Source: a virus
IMG/VR virus record: IMGVR_UViG_3300003324_000536
Coordinates: 1-20,429 of that record
Length of the DNA: 20,429 nt
Direction: 5' to 3' (one strand)
Every line of letters begins with the position of its first letter. The stretch's first letter is position 1. The translations under genes and the position numbers were made by a program. The notes beneath the pieces are model-generated. The model had not been told where the DNA came from, did no database searches, and saw nothing but the letters and a program-made list of their open reading frames with translations. This document shows, one piece after another, positions 1 through 19,656 of the stretch.

Positions 1-3000
1 CCCCACTGGCCGCCGGTGACCTCCCAAATGCCGCCCCCCGAGGTGGCAACCTTCACCGAGCCGTACTGGTCATCCCCGCCGTGCAGCAGGTCGACCATGA
101 ACTGGCGCACGTCCTCGGCGGGGATCCAGGCCGCGCCCAGCCGACCGTCCACCTCATCAATGCCCAGGTCGGCGGGGATGACGTCGCGCAGCGCATCAAC
201 GTTGGCCTGGAAACGGGCATCATGCTTGGCGGCCTCGGTGGCGGCGGCCAGTTTGCGGCGCACGTTGCCGGACAGGTAGGCGGCGGCCGGCTCCAGGGAA
301 CCCGCGGCGCGCACCGACTCGCCGACAGTGTCTAGAGGCGTGCCCCCGGTAGGCAGCTCAATACCGACGTGCTCGCCGTAGCGGCCGGTCAGACCAGCCA
401 GCCCGGACGCGTCTTCGATGTGCGCCCGGAAGGCGGCGTCTTCTTCCGCGGCGGACAGTGGGGGCTGCTCGAACACCAACGTGCCCAACCGCTGCCGGGC
501 ATCAGCCTCGTCGGTGCCCAGCATGGCGGCGATGGCTTTGAGGTTCACCTCACCGTAGGTGTCCAGGGACAGCGCCAGGGCATCGGCGGGGTTGTCGGCG
601 GTGGTGGGGATCTCCCGCGGGGCGACGGCGCGCTTGGTGAAAATGTTGGTCTTGGTGCCGGTGCCGGTTTCGGGGTCGTACACCTCCAGAGCGCGCACGA
701 TCGCCGACATGGGATCCCGGCGGAATCCACCCTGGGCTGGCCGGTTTTGCGCGCCAGTCTTGGACAGGGTGTAGCGGTTGATCGGCTTGTAGCGTTTGAC
801 GTAGGCGTCGTAGCGGTCGTTGAGGTCGCGGCGCAGCTGCCGTATCTGGGCGGTGTCGCTGACGTTGGCGGCCTCGGCGGCGAGCAGCTCGCGCAGGGTG
901 TCGCGCAGGCCGATGAGTTGGCGCAGTTCCTCAGCCTGGGTGGCGGGCACCGGGAAGGGCACCGCGGCGCCGCCCACAACCTGGGTGAAGTTGCCGTCGG
1001 CGTCTTCGGCGATGTGCCCGTCGTGCAGGTCGGACGATTCGGCGATCGCCGACGGTGACTCCAGTCGCGGTGTGGCGGCGATACCGGCCGTTTCGGCGGC
1101 GTCGGTGATGTCGCGCAGCGCCTTCGGGAGGGATTCCGACAGGTCGGTGTCGCCTTTGACGATCAGATCCCCGGTGCCGTAGCGACCTTTCTCGGCGGTC
1201 AGGTCGCCGAGCACGTACGCAGGATGGTCCAGGAAGTACTGGTTGACAGGGATGTCGTGCCCGTTGATGTCCGTGACCGGGGCGTTGATCCAGTCCTGTG
1301 AGGTGAGCGGTTCGGCGTCGGGCTCGCGGCGCCGGAAAATGAGCACGTCCTCAATGACCGAGGTGCCGGCCGTTTTGGAGTGCGACCCGGTGGGCAGGCG
1401 CACCGCGCCGATCAGGTCACCCATCTCCGCCATCTGTTTGCGCGCGGCGGAGTTCTTGGAGTCCAGGGTGTAGCGAGAGGTGAGCAGGGCGCACACGCCG
1501 CCCGGTTTGGTGGCCGCCAAGGACTTGAGAATGAAGTGGTTGTGAATGGAGTGTTTGCGGCCGGGGTTGTGGATGCGGTCGACGAGCTTGAAGTCGCCGA
1601 AGGGCACGTTGCCGACCACAGCATCCATGGATCCGGTAGGTAGGCGGGTGTCGGCGAAGGACTCATTGCGGATGGTGGCACTCGGATACAGGGCGCGAGA
1701 GATCGCCGCAGTGGTGGAGTCGAGCTCCACGCCGATCATGTCAATGTCGAGATGACCGGGGCGCAAGCCGATGAAGTTGCCCGACCCGGAGCCCGGTTCG
1801 AGCACACGCCCGCCGTCGAACCCCAAATCTTGCACGGCCTGCCAGATGGCGGTGATCGCCGCCGCATCCGTGTAGTGCGCGTTGAGGGTGTTACGCCGCG
1901 CCTCGGCCCACTCTTTGTCGTCGAGCAGTCCGCGCAGCTTCGCCCGGTCGGCGGCGTACTCGGGTTTGTCGTCGTCGAACACCTCGGGCAGCCCACCCCA
2001 CCCGGCCCAGCGCGCCAGGGTGTGTTGCTCCTCCTCGGTGGCCGGGCGGTGCTGGCGTTGCAGCTCGCGCAGCACTTCCAGGGCGGCGATGTTCGCGTCG
2101 AGCTTGGCACGCTTACCGGCCGGGGCCAGGTCATCGCCGTTGACCGGGCGAAAGTCCTGCCCACCCTCGGTGGGGATGGCGTCGACTTGCCCGCGGTCGC
2201 TGGTGGGCTGTTCGTCGGGCAGCTCGGGGGTGTTCTCCGCAACTGGCTCACCGTCGGCGGCGGTAGCCGCGTCGCGCTGCGCCTCGGTGACCGGCTGGTC
2301 TACTCCTGCGTCGGGCTGTTCAGGTTGTCCGGACTGTTCGTCGCGCCGTTCAGGTAATCCGGCCGTTTCGGCAGTGTCGGCATCTGCGCCCTCTGCGCGT
2401 CCCGATTCTGCTGATCCAGTTCCGCGCTCGCCGCCGCGAACTCGTTCATCGCCGCGGTCAGCGCCACGTCGCTGCTGTCCGGCAGTTCCGGGGGCAGGCT
2501 CGGGTCCGGTGTCGCCGGCAGCGGGTAGTCGCTGTCCGGCCAGTTCGGGGGCACGTCGGCCAGCAGTGTCTTGCGCATCACCAGTTCTGTCGCCGCCTGC
2601 TGCGCGCTGGTCGTCCGGGCCAGCTTCGCCGCGAACGTCTCCCCGGGCTGGTCCGGTCCGGCCAGGCTCGCCGCCACCTGGTCGATCTCCTGCGCCGCTT
2701 GTTCCCCGAGTGTCCCGAAGAACGTCGCCTTGTCCTCGATTCCCTCGTACGCCTTCGGTAGGTACTGCTGGTACCACTGCTCCGCTAGCGCGGCCAGTGG
2801 ACTGCTCGCGGTCATCGGCTTCTCCCGCCTGTGCGCGGTCCTGTTGCTCCCTGATGATGCCGCGTGCCTTAGCCCACAGCGGCGACCGCTCCGGGTTGAG
2901 CTGCTGCGCTTTATCCAGATGCCCGTGCGCGGTGTCGAAATCGCCCTCATCGGCGGCGGCGCGGGCGGCGCGCATGTGGTTTTGCGCCTTGCCCTGCCGG

Positions 3001-5810
3001 GTGTCGCCCTCAACGTCGGGCACGTTGCGCCGGACGGCTTGGCGGGCGGCCAACGCGTCGGCGACATCGCCGTTGTCGGCATCCCGTGCTTCACCGCGAG
3101 GCGGTGTCGCGGGGTTTTCCTTCTCGTAAGCCGCGACGATTTTCTCGTCGCCAGGGTGGGGGTAGCCGCTGGCGATGCGCTGGCGGGCGGCATCAGCGTG
3201 GCGCTGCGACACGTCACCGAAGGGGCCGGTATCCGGCGAGGGCTTGGACGGCGCGGGGGTTGAAGCCGAAGACCCAGGGGGTGGCTTCGCAGTCCCCTCC
3301 GAGGTGTCCGCCCCCGCGCCGGGCGTCACCGTAGCAACGCCCTCGACGTGGCCGCCGTAGTCCTCGGGGTTGCGCCCGCGGGCCCGCAGTTCGGTGTCGA
3401 TGGCCCCGATCGCCGAGCGGATGCGGTCGCGTTCGATGCGTTTGGCGGCGCGGCGGGCGCGGGCCTGCTCATTGCGGGTCGCTTTGCGCTGGTCGCGTAG
3501 GGCTTGCGCGGCGGCGAACAGCATGCCGGGCTTGATCCGGCCGGCGGCGATCGCGGCGTGCAGATCCCCGTCATTGTCGGGGCCGGTGATGGCAGTGCGG
3601 ATCGCAGCGAAGGCGGGGGAGTCCGCGGGGTGTTTGGCCAGCAGTTTGTCGAACCGGGTTGCTGCGGCGGCGATGGCGTCGTCGTCGCGGGGGGTGGCGT
3701 TGAGCAAATCGCCCAGGTCTTCGGCGGCGCCGGCTAACCCCGGTCGGGTCTTCGGGGTTTTAGGCTGCTCAGGCGTCCCGGCTTCTGGGGTGCCCCCCAC
3801 GCCTGGAGCCGGGGCGTCCGCTTCGTGCGCCTTCGCCTTGGCGGGCTTGGACTGGTCGCGCCGGGACAGTTCGGTTTGCAGGGCGAGCTCGGTGACGAGG
3901 TCTTGCCGGTCGGAGCCGAGCTGCTCGTCGGTTTTGGATTTGAGCGCGGCGGGGTCGGCGTCGAGAAGTTTCTCTACCCGGTCTTGCCGGCCGGCGGCCT
4001 CGGGGGTGAGGTCGAGTTCCCCGTCGGGGCCTTCGATGATGCCGAACTCGTCGGCTTGCGGTTCGGCTGTCTCAGGCTCGGGGGCGCTGTGGTCGTCGAA
4101 AGCGCCCCCGGCGGCGCGCTGGGCGGCTTCGTGCGCCGCCCGGTCACGCTCATTGGCCGGCAGGCCCGCGGCGGCGTCAGCGGCGCTGTGGGTGGCGCCC
4201 TGGGCGGCGATGGCGTCGAGGCGGCGTTGCACCACATCGGAGGGGAGCACGAGGAGGGCCTGGGCGACGTCGTGCGGATCCTGGTCGTCGGGTAGGCCCA
4301 TGCGGGTCAGCGCGTCGGCGAGGTCGTCGGTGTTGCCCTCTTGGATGGCACCCTCGGCGTCGTACCGGGCTTGGCTGGTGTCGGCGTGCCCGGCGTCGAA
4401 CGGGGTTAAGGAGGTCAGGATCTCTTGGACGGCTTGCTGATCTTTGGCTTTGGTCTTGGCGTTGGCCCAGCGCTTTTTCCGCGCGGCGACGTTGCCCCAC
4501 GGGATGCCAAGTTCCGTCAACTTCTGTAAAGCATCGTCGATTTGCGCGGCGGGGATGTCGGGCGAGGCCGGGGGGAGGGTGCCGGCGTTGGCGGTGTCGA
4601 CGATGACCCAGGCTTTGCCGTTGTTGACCGCGGCGAACTGCCCGTCGGGGGAGGCGTGCACGTCGGCGCCGGGCGCGGCGAACTGCGACAGCATGTTCAT
4701 GCTGGTGGCCGCAACTGCGCCAGCGTGCTGGTTGGACTGGTCGTGCTGGGCGGTGGCGAAGTCCTGGTACCGCTGGTGCAGCGCAGCGAGTGCAGCGGCG
4801 ACCCCTGGGCGGACGGCGGCGGGTACGGGGGTAGGTTCGCCGGGCGCGGGGGCCCCGAGGGTGGCTGTCTGCCCGACTCCAGTCGGGGCCCCCGTCGCGC
4901 CGGGCAGCTCTGGTGGGGTGTCGGGCAAGGCGTAGCCGTTGGCGTTGGGGTGCCCGTTGGGGCGGACGGTGACGGGGCCTTTGTCGGCGGTTTCGTCGGC
5001 GCGGCTGGTGGTGGCCAAAAATTCGCGGGGGCTGGCGGCTCGGCCCTGTCCGCGGGGTTTCATGCCCAGCTTGATGGGGGTGCCTACGGGCAGGCCCCAG
5101 AACTGGGAGTCGCGGACGACACGGCGCCCTGGCAGAGCCTTCACGTCGAGGATCCCCTCGTCGGGTTGACCGGAACGCTGTTCAGCGTACCATGTCACAC
5201 CGTCGGAGAGGGATTTGACTCCGGTTAATGTTGCTAAAGGGTGCGCCCCGTGCAACACCTGCGACCACTCGTAAATGTCGTAATCGTGTAAGTAGCGCAG
5301 GCCGCGGCGCATTTTCGCCCCACCCGGCCGCACCTTATAGCCGATAGAAAAGCATTCCTCGGGGCCGTAGAATTTCGCATCTGAATAAGCATCCCGGCCG
5401 GCTTGCTTATCCATGTTGTACTGGGCTTTGATCAGCAAACCACCCGCGGCGGCCGGCCACGGCGCCCCATCCGGGGTCTTTTTCGGCAACCGCGGATCAC
5501 CGGGCATCAACTCCTCGGAGTAGACCAGCTTGGAGACCTTCTGCCCCCAGTTGTGATCCGTGACCCCCTTCGGCTTAAGCCGCTTTACCGCCGTACCCAG
5601 GGAACCGGGCACGATCACGTCGCCCACCTTGTCCGGCACCCCGGACACCGCCACGATCGCCGTGATGGTGCCCTCGGCATCGTCGTGGCCGATGACACCA
5701 GTCAGCGGGGACGTGGTCTCCTCTTTGGGCAGCGCCTTCCACTCCAGTTCGCCCAAATCCGCCGGGTACTGGTCATCCTCAAGATCGAGGCGGGGCTCGG
5801 TGGTGGTCAT
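1..5810 (-). CDS. Giant HK97-type prohead protease / DarB-like N6-methylase fusion (C-terminus off window)
   Basis: At least 1,936 codons are open from ATG 5810, which overlaps the upstream stop as ATGA. Residues 1-215 look like a prohead protease (peptidase S78 family): a His in TDHNWG, a Ser in EECFSIGY, then EWSQVLHGAHPLA followed by GVK. In this family the enzyme cleaves scaffold and capsid proteins during head maturation. A long Ala/Asp/Pro-rich, probably disordered linker follows. From about residue 1240 comes a methylase region like that of P1 DarB and plasmid methylase-helicases: LARWAGWGGLPEVF, SAM motif LEPGSGSGNF (E1338-F1346), catalytic-type NVPFG (N1401), and YLSGNVRRKL near 1845. 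The helicase expected after it would lie beyond the left edge. Residues 999-1171 overlap the separate gene 2815-2300 and are Gly/Arg/Ala-rich with poor codon bias. The domain calls are firm; delivery with the phage DNA is inferred. Confidence 0.88.
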   Translation of the reverse strand, partial: MTTTEPRLDLEDDQYPADLGELEWKALPKEETTSPLTGVIGHDDAEGTITAIVAVSGVPDKVGDVIVPGSLGTAVKRLKPKGVTDHNWGQKVSKLVYSEELMPGDPRLPKKTPDGAPWPAAAGGLLIKAQYNMDKQAGRDAYSDAKFYGPEECFSIGYKVRPGGAKMRRGLRYLHDYDIYEWSQVLHGAHPLATLTGVKSLSDGVTWYAEQRSGQPDEGILDVKALPGRRVVRDSQFWGLPVGTPIKLGMKPRGQGRAASPREFLATTSRADETADKGPVTVRPNGHPNANGYALPDTPPELPGATGAPTGVGQTATLGAPAPGEPTPVPAAVRPGVAAALAALHQRYQDFATAQHDQSNQHAGAVAATSMNMLSQFAAPGADVHASPDGQFAAVNNGKAWVIVDTANAGTLPPASPDIPAAQIDDALQKLTELGIPWGNVAARKKRWANAKTKAKDQQAVQEILTSLTPFDAGHADTSQARYDAEGAIQEGNTDDLADALTRMGLPDDQDPHDVAQALLVLPSDVVQRRLDAIAAQGATHSAADAAAGLPANERDRAAHEAAQRAAGGAFDDHSAPEPETAEPQADEFGIIEGPDGELDLTPEAAGRQDRVEKLLDADPAALKSKTDEQLGSDRQDLVTELALQTELSRRDQSKPAKAKAHEADAPAPGVGGTPEAGTPEQPKTPKTRPGLAGAAEDLGDLLNATPRDDDAIAAAATRFDKLLAKHPADSPAFAAIRTAITGPDNDGDLHAAIAAGRIKPGMLFAAAQALRDQRKATRNEQARARRAAKRIERDRIRSAIGAIDTELRARGRNPEDYGGHVEGVATVTPGAGADTSEGTAKPPPGSSASTPAPSKPSPDTGPFGDVSQRHADAARQRIASGYPHPGDEKIVAAYEKENPATPPRGEARDADNGDVADALAARQAVRRNVPDVEGDTRQGKAQNHMRAARAAADEGDFDTAHGHLDKAQQLNPERSPLWAKARGIIREQQDRAQAGEADDREQSTGRASGAVVPAVPTEGVRGNRGQGDVLRDTRGTSGAGDRPGGGEPGRTGPARGDVRGEAGPDDQRAAGGDRTGDAQDTAGRRAPELAGQRLPAAGDTGPEPAPGTAGQQRRGADRGDERVRGGERGTGSAESGRAEGADADTAETAGLPERRDEQSGQPEQPDAGVDQPVTEAQRDAATAADGEPVAENTPELPDEQPTSDRGQVDAIPTEGGQDFRPVNGDDLAPAGKRAKLDANIAALEVLRELQRQHRPATEEEQHTLARWAGWGGLPEVFDDDKPEYAADRAKLRGLLDDKEWAEARRNTLNAHYTDAAAITAIWQAVQDLGFDGGRVLEPGSGSGNFIGLRPGHLDIDMIGVELDSTTAAISRALYPSATIRNESFADTRLPTGSMDAVVGNVPFGDFKLVDRIHNPGRKHSIHNHFILKSLAATKPGGVCALLTSRYTLDSKNSAARKQMAEMGDLIGAVRLPTGSHSKTAGTSVIEDVLIFRRREPDAEPLTSQDWINAPVTDINGHDIPVNQYFLDHPAYVLGDLTAEKGRYGTGDLIVKGDTDLSESLPKALRDITDAAETAGIAATPRLESPSAIAESSDLHDGHIAEDADGNFTQVVGGAAVPFPVPATQAEELRQLIGLRDTLRELLAAEAANVSDTAQIRQLRRDLNDRYDAYVKRYKPINRYTLSKTGAQNRPAQGGFRRDPMSAIVRALEVYDPETGTGTKTNIFTKRAVAPREIPTTADNPADALALSLDTYGEVNLKAIAAMLGTDEADARQRLGTLVFEQPPLSAAEEDAAFRAHIEDASGLAGLTGRYGEHVGIELPTGGTPLDTVGESVRAAGSLEPAAAYLSGNVRRKLAAATEAAKHDARFQANVDALRDVIPADLGIDEVDGRLGAAWIPAEDVRQFMVDLLHGGDDQYGSVKVATSGGGIWEVTGGQW
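2300..2815 (-). CDS. Overprinted 171-residue gene inside the giant protease-methylase gene
   Basis: This gene reads +1 relative to the giant ORF and is wholly contained in it. ATG 2815 is preceded by GGGAGA (2826-2821) with a 5-base spacer; it ends in TAG at 2302-2300. Its codons end overwhelmingly in G or C, while the giant frame here has many A/T-ending codons and a low-complexity product, so this is the better-looking coding frame locally. The protein starts MTASSPLAALAEQWYQQYLP, continues with an amphipathic helical stretch (FFGTLGEQAAQEI, VAASLAGPDQPGE, AKLARTTSAQQAATELVMRK) and a Pro-rich middle, and ends in a Gln/Asn-rich tail. I do not recognise a family or function. Its place inside a protease linker suggests a head-assembly partner or accessory factor (inference). 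A programmed frameshift product is less likely, given the internal Shine-Dalgarno and ATG. Confidence 0.78.
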   Translation of the reverse strand: MTASSPLAALAEQWYQQYLPKAYEGIEDKATFFGTLGEQAAQEIDQVAASLAGPDQPGETFAAKLARTTSAQQAATELVMRKTLLADVPPNWPDSDYPLPATPDPSLPPELPDSSDVALTAAMNEFAAASAELDQQNRDAQRAQMPTLPKRPDYLNGATNSPDNLNSPTQE

Positions 5811-10924: not shown

Positions 10925-13255
10925 CTAAGACTGCGCCATCGTCTCGACAGGCGCCACCGGAACGGCCACGATCAACCCGTCAGTGACGCTCACCACCGAC
11001 AACGCCACCCCCGCGCCCAGCACCACCGCACCCGATCCGGCCACCCCCACCACCATGCCCGCCGGGATCGCAACCGCCAGCTGGGCCGCGTTGACCGCGG
11101 TCGCCACGCCCAGCGCCAGCGCCAGCGTTTTCGGCCACGAAATCCGCTGACCCGGCGTCACCACCGGCAGCTCGTCCAGAGTGCGGTAGGCCACCACATC
11201 CGCCGGCACCCGAACTGCCGGCACCGAAATATCACCCACGCTCGGATCCTCATTGGTCACCGCACCCACCGGCGCCGCCCCCAGTAGTTGCCGCGCCGCG
11301 CCCGGTGTGCCCGCCTCGGTCAACTCCACCGCATGCGACCAGCCCTCCAGGGGCTTGACGAACAGCAGTCCGCAGCGGCAATTCTTTGATATGATGCCTT
11401 CTGCTGTGTAGACCCCGGTTCCGGTCTGGAGGGTGTAGACATGTCCGCTGAACGGATGGCGACGTACATCAACGATGTAATCCGGCTCTATCGCGCCGGC
11501 CACACCCCGGCACGCATCGGCCAGCAGCTCGGCATACCGGGACCAACTATCCGCGCATGGCTGGTCAAGACTGGCGAGCCCCTTCGAGGACTCAGTGCCG
11601 CATGGCGCCACCGTGAGGACTTCCATGTGCTCGATACCGATGCGCTGAGTACCCGCTACCTGGCAGGCGAGTCGGAGCAGTCTCTCGCTGCCGTCTTCGG
11701 TGTAGACCGCAGCACGATTCGTCGGCACTTGATCGAAGCTGGCATCGATCCCCGTGGCCGCAGTGACGCTAACCGTGCTCGCTGGACCGCTCTGGACGGT
11801 GAAGGCCGCGCCGCGCTGGTTCGTGAGGCTCACGCCGCTGCTCGCGGCCGGATAGTTAGTGATGGGGAGCGGGCTCGCGTCGCTGCGGGTCGGGAAGCAT
11901 TGACCTGCTTCACGTCTCCCTGGGAAGTCGCGCTCGCTCGCTTGCTCGATGAGCGCGGGCTGGCGACCGAACCGCAGCGGGCGGTCGGCCGCTACAACAT
12001 CGACCTCGCCTGTTGGCCGGTCGCCATAGAAGTTCACCGCACCACGACCTATCCGATGACCTACCATGGCAATGCTCAGCGCGCTGTGGATCTGCTCCAG
12101 TGTGGCTGGCGCACCCTGTATGTCTGGATCAATCCCCGTACCGACCTGCTCACCGCGGCGTGCGCTGATCACACAGTCACTCTCGTGCAGCTCGCCCAGT
12201 GCAACCCAGCCGCGTTCGGTGAGTACAGGGTGATTCGGAGTACCGGTGAGGACGCGACCCGTCACGGTGTAGATGGTGATGACGTCACCGACGTAGGGCG
12301 CTCGGAATGACGCCTCAACATCCGGTGCGCTCACCTCTGTACCGCCGATGAAGCAGTTGGCGACTTCCCCGATTCCCTCAGGTAGCACTTCGGGATCGCC
12401 GGGGAACCGTAGACGGAATGCACCCACCTGGTATTTCCAGCCGATCGGCCGCTCTTGACCATCAGCAACACGATGGGTTGGTCTAACTTTTGGATCTCTC
12501 TTCGAAATCCACTGCATGTGCGTCACGCCCATGGCTTTCGCCGCCGCCAGGGCCGCATCCCCGGCCAGCGCGGTGGCCAGGGTGCGGCCATAGACCTGCG
12601 TCCAGTTACCGCCCCGGCGGGCCGCCGCGAGCACCTGATCGATCACCGCGTCCAGATCCTCGGCGGTGGAGTTCGCGTCCAGGATCACTGCGCGCACCAT
12701 GGCGGCCTGCCGGCGGGCCACGCCCAGCATTTGCTGCACCGCCGAATCGACCGCGCCCTCCACCTGCTGCCAGTCGAAGGCCGCCAGCCCGACGTTCGGA
12801 CGGCCTAGGGAGCGAGCGACGTGACTGGCGGCGTCGGCGACGATACGCAATCCCACCGGCCGCACCGCGTCAGCGATCTCATCGACAGTCTTATCCGGGA
12901 GGAGGTAGTCGCCGTCGAGGGCTTTGGTCTCCACCCGGCTTCTAGTAGCAACAGAGCCACCAACCCCCACCCCTGATACGGACTTCACCTGATCGGACCA
13001 GAATCGGGTGCCTTTGCGGGCTTTCGGCCCGCGCAACCGAGCGGACAGGACACCACTGAGGCGATCGTTGTAGCCGGCGATCGCTGCCGTCATCGCGGAC
13101 ACGGCCCGGTCTACCCGCGCCGCCGCATCATCAGCCAACGCGTCCCGGATCGGTCCGTGCGGCGGATCCGGGGGCGCCTCATGCACCATCGCCTGCGCGA
13201 TCGGCAAATCCGGCAGGGCATCAGCGCCCAGCAGGTCGCGCGCCGCGCTGCTCAC
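10925..13255 (-). CDS. MuF-like head protein interrupted by an in-frame intein
   Basis: 776 codons from GTG 13255, the first start after an in-frame stop; GGAGG abuts the GTG and the gene overlaps the portal gene by 35 bases. The N-extein (residues 1-300) is helical and ends in a MuF-type core (MQWISKRDPKVRPTHRVADG, FPGDPEVLPEGIGEVAN); the C-extein begins CRCGLLF. Joined, they restore ANCRC, the Cys-rich end of Mu gpF-like domains. In this family the protein sits at the portal and helps head assembly; some copies carry toxin domains and are injected. The intein is residues 301-625. After splicing the protein would have 451 residues. The hydrophobic Gly/Ala/Val C-terminus (VAIPAGMVVGVAGSGAVVLG) loosely recalls the end of ADP-ribosyltransferase domains, without their catalytic residues. 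Confidence 0.9.
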   Translation of the reverse strand: MSSAARDLLGADALPDLPIAQAMVHEAPPDPPHGPIRDALADDAAARVDRAVSAMTAAIAGYNDRLSGVLSARLRGPKARKGTRFWSDQVKSVSGVGVGGSVATRSRVETKALDGDYLLPDKTVDEIADAVRPVGLRIVADAASHVARSLGRPNVGLAAFDWQQVEGAVDSAVQQMLGVARRQAAMVRAVILDANSTAEDLDAVIDQVLAAARRGGNWTQVYGRTLATALAGDAALAAAKAMGVTHMQWISKRDPKVRPTHRVADGQERPIGWKYQVGAFRLRFPGDPEVLPEGIGEVANCFIGGTEVSAPDVEASFRAPYVGDVITIYTVTGRVLTGTPNHPVLTERGWVALGELHESDCVISARRGEQVGTGIDPDIQGAPATLEQIHSALSIAMVGHRIGRGAVNFYGDRPTGEVDVVAADRPLRFGRQPALIEQASERDFPGRREAGQCFPTRSDASPLPITNYPAASSGVSLTNQRGAAFTVQSGPASTVSVTAATGIDASFDQVPTNRAAVYTEDGSERLLRLACQVAGTQRIGIEHMEVLTVAPCGTESSKGLASLDQPCADSWSRYAELLADACRGVAGAIEPDYIVDVRRHPFSGHVYTLQTGTGVYTAEGIISKNCRCGLLFVKPLEGWSHAVELTEAGTPGAARQLLGAAPVGAVTNEDPSVGDISVPAVRVPADVVAYRTLDELPVVTPGQRISWPKTLALALGVATAVNAAQLAVAIPAGMVVGVAGSGAVVLGAGVALSVVSVTDGLIVAVPVAPVETMAQS
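11387..11433 (+). promoter_or_regulatory. Promoter and ribosome binding site of the antisense endonuclease gene
   Basis: TGATATGAT (11387-11395) is an extended -10 element with five of six matches to TATAAT. Transcription would start near 11402. GGAGGG (11428-11433) lies 7 bases before ATG 11441. On the opposite strand the -10 is written by the intein's last codons for Ile-Ile-Ser-Lys, including ATA and TCA, which are rare in this GC-rich DNA. No good -35 is seen at the usual distance, as expected for an extended -10 promoter. Confidence 0.65.
11441..12310 (+). CDS. Vsr/EDxHD-like homing endonuclease encoded antisense inside the intein
   Basis: 289 residues, ATG 11441 with GGAGGG 7 bases upstream. 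The N-terminus holds two helix-turn-helix-like units (INDVIRLYRAGHTPARIGQQ through IPGPTIRAWLVKTG, residues 10-45; LSTRYLAGESEQSLAAVFGV through DRSTIRRHLIEAGI, 69-102). Residues 158-232 resemble a Vsr-like PD-(D/E)xK nuclease: TSPWEVALARLL (E162), YNIDLACWPVAIEVH (D188, E197, H199), YHGNAQRAVDLLQCGWRTLY (H209, D217), VWINP. Vsr-like 'EDxHD' proteins are known homing endonucleases beside split inteins and introns. Every codon is the exact reverse complement of an intein codon, and there is no TTA, CTA or TCA codon, so the intein stays open. The last 55 residues or so lie opposite Hint blocks and may be partly passenger sequence. Presumed job: cut intein-free MuF alleles to spread the intein. 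Activity is unproven. Confidence 0.82.
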   Translation: MSAERMATYINDVIRLYRAGHTPARIGQQLGIPGPTIRAWLVKTGEPLRGLSAAWRHREDFHVLDTDALSTRYLAGESEQSLAAVFGVDRSTIRRHLIEAGIDPRGRSDANRARWTALDGEGRAALVREAHAAARGRIVSDGERARVAAGREALTCFTSPWEVALARLLDERGLATEPQRAVGRYNIDLACWPVAIEVHRTTTYPMTYHGNAQRAVDLLQCGWRTLYVWINPRTDLLTAACADHTVTLVQLAQCNPAAFGEYRVIRSTGEDATRHGVDGDDVTDVGRSE

Positions 13256-16791: not shown

Positions 16792-17182
16792 CACGGCCCC
16801 CCGTCAACGCCTGCCGCGTCGGGGGCAGCACCGGACGATGCACCCGCAAATCCGGCTGGTAGCCCAGCACGTAGGTGACCTCACGGTGCAACTGCTCGGG
16901 CAGCACCGCCAGAACGTGGTTAGTGACCGACTGGGCATCACGGCGGGCGTCGCGCTCGCGCAGCCACGCGCGGGCCGCCAGGCCGGCGGCCACGATCGCG
17001 CCCACCACAATGAACGTGATCAGCACGAACCATCCGCTGTTGTCGCTGGACTGGTTAATCACGGGCACGACGACGGGGCCCTGCTGCTGCGGGGCGGCCG
17101 GCTGATCCGAACCGAACCCCAAACACCCCGCCACGAAAAATGTTGCCGCGATGCCCACGGCCAGCGCGAGTAATCGCCTCAT
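16784..17182 (-). CDS. Lipoprotein with additional membrane helix
   Basis: 132 residues. The N-terminus MRRLLALAVGIAATFFVAGC is a lipoprotein signal with lipobox VAGC, so Cys20 would be lipidated and the rest exported. A Pro/Gln-rich linker (APQQQGPVVVPVINQSS) leads to a second hydrophobic helix (WFVLITFIVVGAIVAAGLAA) and an Arg-rich segment (ARAWLRERDARRDAQ). ATG 17182 overlaps the GntR gene's stop as ATGA. A lysogeny-expressed surface lipoprotein for superinfection exclusion is possible from this position beside regulators (inference). Confidence 0.7.
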   Translation of the reverse strand: MRRLLALAVGIAATFFVAGCLGFGSDQPAAPQQQGPVVVPVINQSSDNSGWFVLITFIVVGAIVAAGLAARAWLRERDARRDAQSVTNHVLAVLPEQLHREVTYVLGYQPDLRVHRPVLPPTRQALTGGRDD

Positions 17183-18006
17183 GATGCTGTCTCCCTCACA
17201 GTTGGTACGTCTCTACAAGGCTGCTCGTGATAAACCACAAGCATGAATCGATGCGACGCCATCACGTCATGGGTGCAGCGCACCGCGATCCCGGCGGCGT
17301 CGTAGGAAGTGCGGCAGTTCACGAGTACAGGCATGCCTCGGTGAGACATGCGCAGTACCGCCGCCTCAGCCGGCTCGGGTGAGCGCGAGCTGATTTGGTC
17401 CTCATCGGCCACAATCTGGTGACCGCGTTCCGCCACGATGTCTAGTGGCGAGGGTTTGTTGAGATCAACAGCATCGCCATGGCCGGTAATGGCTAATTCA
17501 GTCCCGGCAGCAAGTGGGCTGCCGTCGTTGAGGTACATCGGAAAATATCCAGTAGAGATCATCACTGGTTCGCCATCGATGTACCTGATCCGACGTCGTG
17601 CTACACACTCGGCGCCGTCAGCAAGATTGAGATGTTTCGTGACGTGCGGTGGCGGAGTACCGATGAGCACCGTGAGATCGTGACCGCCGACAAGGCCTTC
17701 GTTGGCCAGCCATGTCCGCCACACGTCGCGAGTAGTGTTGCCGCGCTTGTCGATGGTGAGCAGGGGGAATCGGCGCCGCTGATCCTCGCGCACGTGCCAG
17801 CCGTGGCCTGGGATGGAGACGATGAGTCCCATCTCAGCGAGGTAGGTTAGCGCGTTGCGCGCGGTGAGGTCGGAGACTCCGAAACGCTCGCAGAGCGCAG
17901 CGATGGTAGGGAGGCGAGTGTCGTGCCGATAGGCCCCGGAGGCGATTTCTTCGGAGAGGGCTTCCACCACAGTGTCACGCTTCCTCCCACTTGCCGCAGA
18001 TGACAT
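17179..18006 (-). CDS. GntR-family regulator with UTRA effector domain
   Basis: 275 residues. The N-terminal winged helix-turn-helix (DTVVEALSEEIASGAYRHDT, RLPTIAALCERFGVSDLTAR, GLIVSIPGHGWHV) is GntR-like. The C-terminal part has UTRA features: GAECVARRRIRYIDGEPVMI, TGYFPMYL, and RCTHDVMASHRFMLVVY. Actinobacterial conjugative plasmids use such proteins (KorSA type) to repress their transfer and replication genes and their own promoter. It overlaps the GIY-YIG/GntR gene by 32 bases and the lipoprotein by 4, so all are probably one transcript. Its likely operator is the inverted repeat at 18621-18643, although the neighbouring fusion protein could bind it instead. Confidence 0.85.
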   Translation of the reverse strand: MSSAASGRKRDTVVEALSEEIASGAYRHDTRLPTIAALCERFGVSDLTARNALTYLAEMGLIVSIPGHGWHVREDQRRRFPLLTIDKRGNTTRDVWRTWLANEGLVGGHDLTVLIGTPPPHVTKHLNLADGAECVARRRIRYIDGEPVMISTGYFPMYLNDGSPLAAGTELAITGHGDAVDLNKPSPLDIVAERGHQIVADEDQISSRSPEPAEAAVLRMSHRGMPVLVNCRTSYDAAGIAVRCTHDVMASHRFMLVVYHEQPCRDVPTVRETAS

Positions 18007-18598
18007 CGGTCAGCACCTCCACTTCGGTACTCGGGCATAGTGCTACAGCCACACGGCTGCCGTCACCCCGCTTGGTTTCGATCAAGCCGAAATTACTTAA
18101 TTTGAGCAAGGCGGCGCGAAGGGTGATGAGCGAAACAGCAAATTTCTCACACAGGACAGCTTGACTGGGTAATCTATCTCCCTCGCGGAACTTTTTATCA
18201 ATAATCAGTCGAATCATCTCATCTATAACAAATTCGACTTTAGTGCCCCGCCTAACGGGGGTAACCGCACCCGATGCCTGAATTACCCAGCCGGGACGCC
18301 TGTTGTAGCGGGGTTTTTCCGTTTGGATTACACGAACCTCTTCGTTTTCCAGTGATAATCGAGTCGGCCAGAACTCGATTTCACAGCTTGCTACCTGATT
18401 CCACCACCATTTTTCTCGGGCGTGAGCGTAGAACCGTGCCCGGATGTCGTTAGTGATCCCCACGTAGATCAACTCGCCCGCTGCGTCGCGCAGACGGTAG
18501 AGCACGTGCAGCCACGTGAACGCGGCGCCCTCTGCGTCGTCAAGCCGCATGCCGGGCAGCGTTACGACCTCTGCTGGCTCAAGCGCAGCAGCGGGCAT
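17975..18598 (-). CDS. GIY-YIG nuclease domain fused to GntR-like DNA-binding domain
   Basis: 207 residues from ATG 18598, chosen because GGAGGTG lies directly upstream at good spacing; the frame extends to 18727 without a ribosome site. Residues about 30-105 are GIY-YIG-like: VLYRLRDAAGELIYVGITND, IRARFYAHAREKWWWNQV, then LENEEVRVIQTEKPRYNRR with the family's Glu and terminal Asn. Residues about 120-190 form a winged helix (VEFVIDEMIRLIIDKKFREG, LPSQAVLCEKFAVSLITLRA, LIETKRGDGSRVAV). GIY-YIG domains nick or cut DNA; GntR domains bind operators. The fusion may be a sequence-directed nuclease or a regulator with a structural GIY-YIG fold. The stretch 18085-18420 is distinctly AT-richer than its surroundings. 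Confidence 0.8.
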   Translation of the reverse strand: MPAAALEPAEVVTLPGMRLDDAEGAAFTWLHVLYRLRDAAGELIYVGITNDIRARFYAHAREKWWWNQVASCEIEFWPTRLSLENEEVRVIQTEKPRYNRRPGWVIQASGAVTPVRRGTKVEFVIDEMIRLIIDKKFREGDRLPSQAVLCEKFAVSLITLRAALLKLSNFGLIETKRGDGSRVAVALCPSTEVEVLTDVICGKWEEA

Positions 18599-18620
18599 GG
18601 TCACCTCCATAGATGTCGGT

Positions 18621-18647
18621 ATACAATCGGTTCGCGCTTGTATCATA
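18621..18647. promoter_or_regulatory. Probable operator overlapping divergent promoters
   Basis: ATACAA (18621-18626) and TTGTAT (18638-18643) form a 6-bp inverted repeat with an 11-base spacer, suited to a dimeric GntR-type protein. The leftward -10 TATGAT (18647-18642) overlaps one arm, and a possible rightward -10 TACAAT (18622-18627) overlaps the other. Binding would therefore repress the regulator operon and the rightward membrane-protein gene together. The -35 elements are weak. Confidence 0.5.
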
Positions 18648-18717
18648 ACGTACGCACGCTGCGCCTTCGGCCGGTTTTTGCCCGCAGGCCGCCGCCCCAC
18701 TGTGAGGAGTGGACTGC

Positions 18718-19656
18718 ATGGCCGCACCGCTCACCGCCGAGCAGGCACCGGTTACGCGCGTGCGCTACCTCGACCGCTGGGATGACTTCGGCATCGGCCT
18801 CGTCGTCATCCCGCTGGTGCTCTGGGGCGCGGCTAGCGTGTTCCTGCTCGCCAGGGCCTGCCACATCGACGCCTATGTCGCGTGGATCCCGGCGGTGGCC
18901 ACCACGGGTGTCATGCTCACCACCACCCGCATGGCGATGCGCCACGGCATGCCCGCTGAGATCAAAAAGTGGGCCACCTATCTGGCCGCGTTCGCGGTGC
19001 TCGCCGAGATCATCGTGGCGGGGTTGCAGCATTCCCTGCCGGCGACTCTGCAACCCCCGGCGATCGTCATGTTCATCATCGGCTGCCTGCCCACCCTCAT
19101 GGGCGCGGCCACGATCAAGGTGTGGTCCGCGGCGCACAGCGCGCAAACCGCTGCCAATGCCGCCGCCGAGCAGGCCATCATCAACGCCCAGGCGCAGCAG
19201 GCCGCGCAACTCGCCCAAGTGCAGGCGCAGCGCCAGATCATCGCCGACCAGGAGTCCGCCACCCGGCGCCGCCAGGCTGATGAGATCGAGCACGCCCGCC
19301 AGCTCGCCGCCATCGCCACTCAAACCGCGCAAGCCGAGCAGGCCGCCGCCGCTGCCCGCGAGCGGGTCAGCACCGCGCTGAACAATCCCGCGCCCGAGGG
19401 GCCGCGCAAGCGGGCCCCGAAACCGCCGGCCAAGAAGCCGACCCTGGTCACCACTGACGCGCTGGGCAATGTGGCCAAGCCGTCCCCGAAGCGGGATGCC
19501 GCGCTGCGCTACCTGATCGACAACGCGCACCGTCTCGGTGAGGTGACCGGCGCCGAGGTGGATCGGCACATCGGCGCCAACTCTTATGCCCGCCGCTACC
19601 TCGACGAGTGGGTTGCGGCTGTTCGTGCCCATCTCAGTGACAGGGGGGCCGCCTAG
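18718..19656 (+). CDS. Four-helix membrane protein with coiled coil (Spd/DUF2637-like)
   Basis: 312 residues from ATG 18718, with GAGGAG 8 bases upstream. Four hydrophobic helices (FGIGLVVIPLVLWGAASVFL; YVAWIPAVATTGVMLT; WATYLAAFAVLAEIIVAGL; IVMFIIGCLPTLMGAATI) are followed by an Ala/Gln-rich coiled coil (about 140-225), a Lys/Pro linker and a C-terminal winged-helix-like end (ALRYLIDNAHRLGEVTGAEV, DRHIGANSYARRYLDEW). This plan matches DUF2637/Spd-type proteins of actinobacterial conjugative plasmids, involved in spread of the element between hyphae or cells; the assignment is by topology, not confirmed homology. Its stop overlaps the next GTG by one base. Confidence 0.75.
   Translation: MAAPLTAEQAPVTRVRYLDRWDDFGIGLVVIPLVLWGAASVFLLARACHIDAYVAWIPAVATTGVMLTTTRMAMRHGMPAEIKKWATYLAAFAVLAEIIVAGLQHSLPATLQPPAIVMFIIGCLPTLMGAATIKVWSAAHSAQTAANAAAEQAIINAQAQQAAQLAQVQAQRQIIADQESATRRRQADEIEHARQLAAIATQTAQAEQAAAAARERVSTALNNPAPEGPRKRAPKPPAKKPTLVTTDALGNVAKPSPKRDAALRYLIDNAHRLGEVTGAEVDRHIGANSYARRYLDEWVAAVRAHLSDRGAA

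Follow-up and report, generated by a model that had tools for sequence, protein, structure and literature searches.

A small gene of 171 codons lies wholly inside a giant gene for a prohead protease and DarB-like methylase, on the same strand and in another frame, in the stretch of viral DNA analysed here (20,429 nt, hereafter the window), and this is very probably a genuine overlapping gene pair with both frames translated. The same kind of small ORF, in the same place and at the same frame offset towards the 5' side of an ORF for a DarB-like methylase-helicase, was found in about 95 relatives on viral contigs, plasmids and bacterial genomes of Actinomycetota and Pseudomonadota, with the giant frame open in every nested relative down to 40% GC. 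Judged from these sequences, both frames are kept by selection at a constant offset and the overlap in the window is the product neither of chance nor of sequencing error, the comparative evidence being decisive.

The giant ORF runs on the minus strand from an ATG at 5810 to the window edge (3..5810), 1936 codons without a stop, and continues past that edge; its complete counterparts in the viral relatives L001 and L002 encode 3168 and 3259 aa, with GAGKT and DEAH motifs, picked out by eye, that would fit a C-terminal SF2 helicase. Its N-terminal part matched phrog_80 (E 1.5e-13; residues 40-201, minus strand 5208..5693) and was 42-46% identical to annotated capsid maturation proteases. The conserved methylase region (minus strand, 3..2129), beginning LAPAGKRAKL..., was 77% identical to L001 and 68% to L002 and matched phrog_11801 and the DarB-like antirestriction family phrog_10089 (E 1.3e-158), the helicase part lying beyond the window. 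As portal and MuF-like head genes stand upstream of the giant, the giant sits in a phage head region. The small gene (minus strand, 2300..2815) runs from ATG to TAG and is preceded by a short Shine-Dalgarno match, GGGAG (minus strand, 2822..2826; a 4-mer by scan). The frame of the methylase is offset by -1 from that of the small gene, each giant codon being made of small-codon positions 3,1,2, and the coding signal moves to the small frame exactly across 2815-2300, where in the giant frame GC3 drops from roughly 0.8 to roughly 0.5 and GC1 climbs to about 0.9; GC at codon positions 1, 2 and 3 of the small frame is 0.68, 0.49 and 0.88. Read in the giant frame, the overlap DNA (minus strand, 2303..2814) gives a low-complexity linker rich in Gly, Ala, Arg and Asp, without stops or Cys; across relatives, the choice of wobble base steers the composition of this linker. 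Within the small ORF the third frame contains 7 stops, and no ATG, GTG or TTG occurs in the giant frame from 2777 to 2075. The first-pass annotation, made from the letters of the window, had described the uninterrupted giant frame with its protease head, the switch of coding signal, the Shine-Dalgarno and ATG, the GC-ending codons, a helical small protein and a Gly/Arg/Asp/Ala-rich giant frame at this place, and all of this was borne out.

In the first 11 loci that were read, the methylase frame was the small frame -1 and open throughout the small ORF without exception (11/11). A bacterial genome scan added 30 loci (with a profile from a 5-row alignment, the 11-row alignment being too divergent), which brought the searches with the small protein to 34 nested loci and 2 with a break further downstream; a sample of 396 actinobacterial genomes contributed 4 more nested loci. 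On actinobacterial plasmids, relatives of the small protein precede the methylase-helicase and are either annotated as TnpV or hidden inside the helicase CDS. A search with the methylase only, blind to the small gene, returned 11 further plasmids and 5 further viral contigs, of which 9 and 5 respectively carried the nested small ORF; Gordonia, in this search, showed a diverged ORF in the same relation to the methylase. Three plasmids of Pseudomonas, Stutzerimonas and Salmonella carried an ORF of 94-101 residues that agrees in position and offset. The Pseudomonas copy had relatives in 63 plasmid records, and a viral scan with the Pseudomonas methylase produced 40 proteobacterial phage loci, including genomes at 40% GC, every one with an ORF at the same offset inside an open giant frame (40/40). 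At three Streptomycete loci (L038-L040) the small gene ended before the methylase started, so that homologues with separate genes do exist, and no such nested ORF was seen at the gut-phage DarB loci L055-L059 or on the Lactococcus plasmid L080. Two plasmid loci from pathogens (L081, L082) were fetched and left out of the analysis, and four other loci (L084, L088, L114, L123), with an uncertain start or a sequence unlike the others, were excluded from the phage statistics. On the Citricoccus plasmid L068, one indel inside the small gene, around 2640, shifts the small and methylase frames together, and one actinobacterial genome carries tandem small-gene copies (L050/L054, G188:C7:149454-150348), the second of them nested in the methylase ORF.

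The nearest viral relatives of the small protein were those in L001 (62%) and L002 (55%), and both frames are open in both. An AF2 model of the protein (mean pLDDT 75) contained five helices, at residues 6-18, 20-25, 29-52, 61-86 and 114-144, and a structure search with this model returned weak helical-bundle matches only (best Z 6.3 over 62 residues). No significant family was found for the window protein in Pfam, PHROG, NCBIfam or PADLOC, and against Pfam TnpV (PF14198) it gave no match at E up to 1, staying below the gathering cut-off of 27 bits; the relative in L007 passed that cut-off with 28.4 bits, and other relatives scored beneath it at 19-25 bits (20.7 for L087). We class the small protein as a divergent TnpV-like helical protein. 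A tblastn search of phages with the actinobacterial copy gave no match, and with the proteobacterial copy the nested protein was found by direct search in 21 phage records, almost always beneath an annotated DarB, methylase or transglycosylase CDS. In profile comparison by hhalign, the type-1 proteins of phages proved homologous to those of actinobacteria (E 6.6e-7, probability 92), and type-2 phage proteins were linked to the plasmid proteins (E 6e-6, probability 85), with weaker links between these two halves (E 0.0007-0.018). The direct comparison of proteobacterial plasmid with actinobacterial proteins was not significant (E 0.16-0.5), so the link between them runs through the phage copies, and a common ancestry of all the nested small proteins is likely. 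The nested protein of Erwinia phage PEp14 (L087:2618-2932) matched the last 90 columns of PHROG 938 (E 1.8e-19), a profile of 2185 columns labelled 'endolysin'; in some phages the giant upstream may thus run on in the small frame and share its end with the small gene.

Selection on the overlap was found to be frame-specific. In the cores of four groups of relatives the small-frame NN/SN ratio was 0.15-0.55 (Arthrobacter 0.15, Kocuria 0.29, phage 0.55), whereas the giant frame within the overlap showed no site-specific constraint (NN/NS about 1) and was constrained in its avoidance of stops and in its composition, with Cys, Tyr and Trp avoided. In the overlap the giant product reads as a flexible, Cys-free linker that is otherwise free in sequence, and the giant frame looks like an added reading laid over a conserved small gene. 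As the small frame is conserved and has stand-alone TnpV relatives, the methylase frame was probably extended over an existing tnpV-like gene. The opposite origin, a de novo birth of the small gene within a methylase linker that was already there, is the alternative that fares best, nested loci being far commoner than separate ones (about 95 against 3), but we consider it unlikely, though by no means negligible: besides the conservation of the small frame, its relatives reach into Pfam TnpV, in clostridial transposons TnpV is reported to stand alone as an ordinary gene (PMC3158075), and the giant segment is of low complexity with a constraint on composition only.

Since a giant codon is formed from small-codon positions 3,1,2, a stop in the giant frame needs a T at the wobble position of the small gene, which is rare at high GC, and the openness of the giant frame had to be tested against codon expectation. 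On the codon usage of the window itself, 3.7 giant-frame stops would be expected from the small protein, the frame staying open in 1.8% of resamplings, and in 108 segments of equal length taken from the methylase body that shifted frame was never open. Among 20 representatives under 60% identity, each tested with the codon usage of its own methylase, no giant-frame stop was seen where 49.8 were expected (116 were seen in the third frame), although related loci are not independent and summed expectations overstate significance. Low-GC cases likewise had no giant-frame stop, against expectations of 7.7 (L110), 6.0 (L120) and 6.2 (L107). When wobble T in the small ORF was sorted by what the giant frame would read there, Ser (89 seen, 68.8 expected) and Phe/Leu (19 seen, 20.8 expected) occurred freely, and stop (53 expected), Cys (19.7 expected) and Tyr (17.0 expected) were never seen, the expectations being simple codon ones outside any formal overlap model and part of the composition shift being a general wobble preference for G over C. 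The 28 proteobacterial phage loci behaved in the same manner (seen/expected in the giant frame: stop 0/90.8, Cys 0/36.0, Trp 0/11.8, His 18/69.2). Tallied over two sets of loci, 57 and 91 stops and 21 and 36 Cys readings were expected in the giant frame, and none occurred. These contrasts far exceed what kinship and a simple codon model could explain, and such avoidance of residues and stops was absent from methylase bodies and from the separate genes of L038-L040, which argues that ribosomes do read the giant frame across the overlap and that the product of this frame matters. Were only the small gene real in 2815-2300, the giant frame being open by chance and protease and methylase being separate genes, the rarity of wobble T at 70% GC would help, as would the open-frame probability of 0.2-0.6 at some single loci and the possible starts after the small gene in L001, L002, L006 and L007. 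We regard this as very improbable: stops are missing from the representatives and the phages alike, including cases at 40-48% GC, Cys, Tyr and Trp are avoided as well, and the window, L010, L013, L020 and others offer no ATG, GTG or TTG between the body of the small ORF and the methylase.

The starts of the two genes bear on the same point. The methylase ORF of Arthrobacter, Kocuria and others opens with a conserved leader, for example MAGRKKQIDGQLSFEALWAAPEEDR, that starts 25-28 codons upstream of the small ATG. In the methylase frame, dN/dS of this leader was 0.07 and 0.20, against values above 1 in the other frames; several of these short-leader loci have no later methylase start codon. This conservation in the methylase frame also speaks against separate genes. 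A Shine-Dalgarno match of at least 4 nt was present at 38 of 39 small starts, compared with about 20% of control ATGs. The leader carries a QLSF/QLSI/QLTL motif, which we infer to resemble the clamp-binding consensus QL[S/D]LF (PMC12309361). At L008:7931, L009:7877, L020:5925, L022:5916 and others, annotation leaves out the leader with its QLSF/QLSI motif, since it puts the methylase start downstream of the small gene. A programmed -1 frameshift from the small gene into the methylase, which would turn the small protein into an N-terminal domain of the methylase and rob the open frame upstream of its meaning, would agree with the methylase frame always being the small frame -1, but it is hardly credible beside a leader conserved in the methylase frame and an avoidance of stops that extends over the whole small ORF, not merely past a slip site; with no stop between leader and methylase, the giant product needs no frameshift. 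Two sequencing or assembly indels displacing one continuous gene, conceivable for a metagenome-derived viral contig, have practically no chance of being the explanation and were refuted by independent genomes, the same offset being found in complete plasmids and in cultivated-phage records such as Erwinia PEp14 and Klebsiella LASTA. The original proposal that both frames are used and that the giant is translated through the overlap thus gains support from stop and Cys avoidance, leader conservation and frame-specific purifying selection.

Its companion idea, that the fusion of protease and methylase engulfed a separate small gene, found no support. Plasmids without the protease are already nested, with the leader of 25-28 residues or with other domains in its place, so the nesting predates the protease fusion. 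Upstream of the nested gene there may be a short leader, a region of about 425 aa, a region of about 870 aa, or the protease. Micromonospora has an unrelated N-terminus of about 425 aa (DnaG/TOPRIM-like by eye), a Streptomyces plasmid that also bears a phage portal gene has another unrelated region of about 870 aa, and the prohead protease module is common to the window, L001 and L002; L006, L007, L010 and L014 carry differing N-terminal modules ahead of the same nested pair. Modules have been swapped repeatedly upstream of the overlap, and the protease appears as one of several later N-terminal additions. On balance we favour, with some reserve, the view that an out-of-frame overlap with a partner gene is general and ancient in DarB-type giants, with an obligatory partner, a linker selected for composition and, upstream, a site of module exchange that has received a clamp-binding-like leader, a primase-like domain, the prohead protease and transglycosylase.

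In the arrangement proposed here, the small TnpV-like protein would be initiated inside the giant gene, from a Shine-Dalgarno and an ATG of its own (2815), and end at 2300, and ribosomes coming from the head of the giant would read the same DNA one base earlier, crossing the overlap as a linker that would join the N-terminal module, in the window the prohead protease, to the DarB-like methylase-helicase. DarB of phage P1, carried in the head, is believed to go into the cell together with the DNA (PMC9024508) and protects DNA from restriction (PMC9024508, PMC5512222); by analogy, the giant may travel in the head and shield entering DNA from restriction. As the small protein is welded to the giant gene across many elements, we put forward, though only tentatively, that it is a dedicated partner of the giant and may serve localisation, packaging or control.

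Other features were noted elsewhere in the window. The MuF-like head morphogenesis gene (minus strand, 10925-13255) contains an intein at residues about 301-630 (Pfam Intein_splicing, E 0.0014), with PHROG head-protein matches on either side. Antisense to it, within the intein part, lies an ORF of 289 aa (plus strand, 11441-12310) with matches to Pfam HTH_23 (E 1.6e-10) and, weakly, to the restriction-endonuclease-like MTES_1575 (E 0.007), which is possibly the intein endonuclease encoded on the opposite strand and would then form a second overlapping pair. A GIY-YIG nuclease fused to a GntR-type DNA-binding domain (minus strand, 17975-18727; Pfam E 1.3e-6 and 8e-13) adjoins a second GntR-like gene (17179-18006).

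Many known nested same-strand genes are young or bound to one lineage, and to our knowledge few long ones are well established in bacteria and mobile elements. The annotation of the records examined gave at best truncated neighbours or one of the two genes and is misleading, as the frames show the methylase open through the small ORF. If the present reading is true, DarB-type antirestriction giants have an overlooked partner protein and many of their N-termini are misannotated, and the loci would offer an extensive natural record of the way in which a single piece of DNA is tuned for two proteins. The overlapping pair was found undescribed in searches of the open-access literature, and the text of Iyer et al. 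2017 on DarB of P1 and the polyvalent proteins (PMC5512222) mentions neither TnpV nor 'overlapping'. The giants share with that group a methylase, occurrence in phages and plasmids, often other N-terminal domains and, presumably, a helicase part and a role in antirestriction, and differ in that a second gene lies here between the N-terminal module and the methylase. TnpV of Tn4451-type transposons, a stand-alone protein postulated to be Xis-like (PMC3158075), resembles the relatives of the small protein by profile; it differs in standing alone, and the window protein is without a significant match to its Pfam family. For a small DarB partner there is a precedent in P1 Ulx, a 17 kDa protein of the virion head whose entry comes directly ahead of DarB in the order of ORFs and which is recorded as an aid to the localisation of DarB (PMC9024508), a likeness that we take as a functional analogy only. 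The closest parallel in gene layout is comS within srfAB of Bacillus subtilis (PMC12915044), where a small same-strand gene likewise lies inside a giant in another frame and both products are used. That nested gene belongs to one operon in one genus group, whereas the present pair spans at least two phyla, on phages and plasmids alike, lies near the 5' side of the giant and has a linker selected for composition in the giant frame. Nested same-strand genes are known as such, and it is the breadth of the present pair that is unusual.
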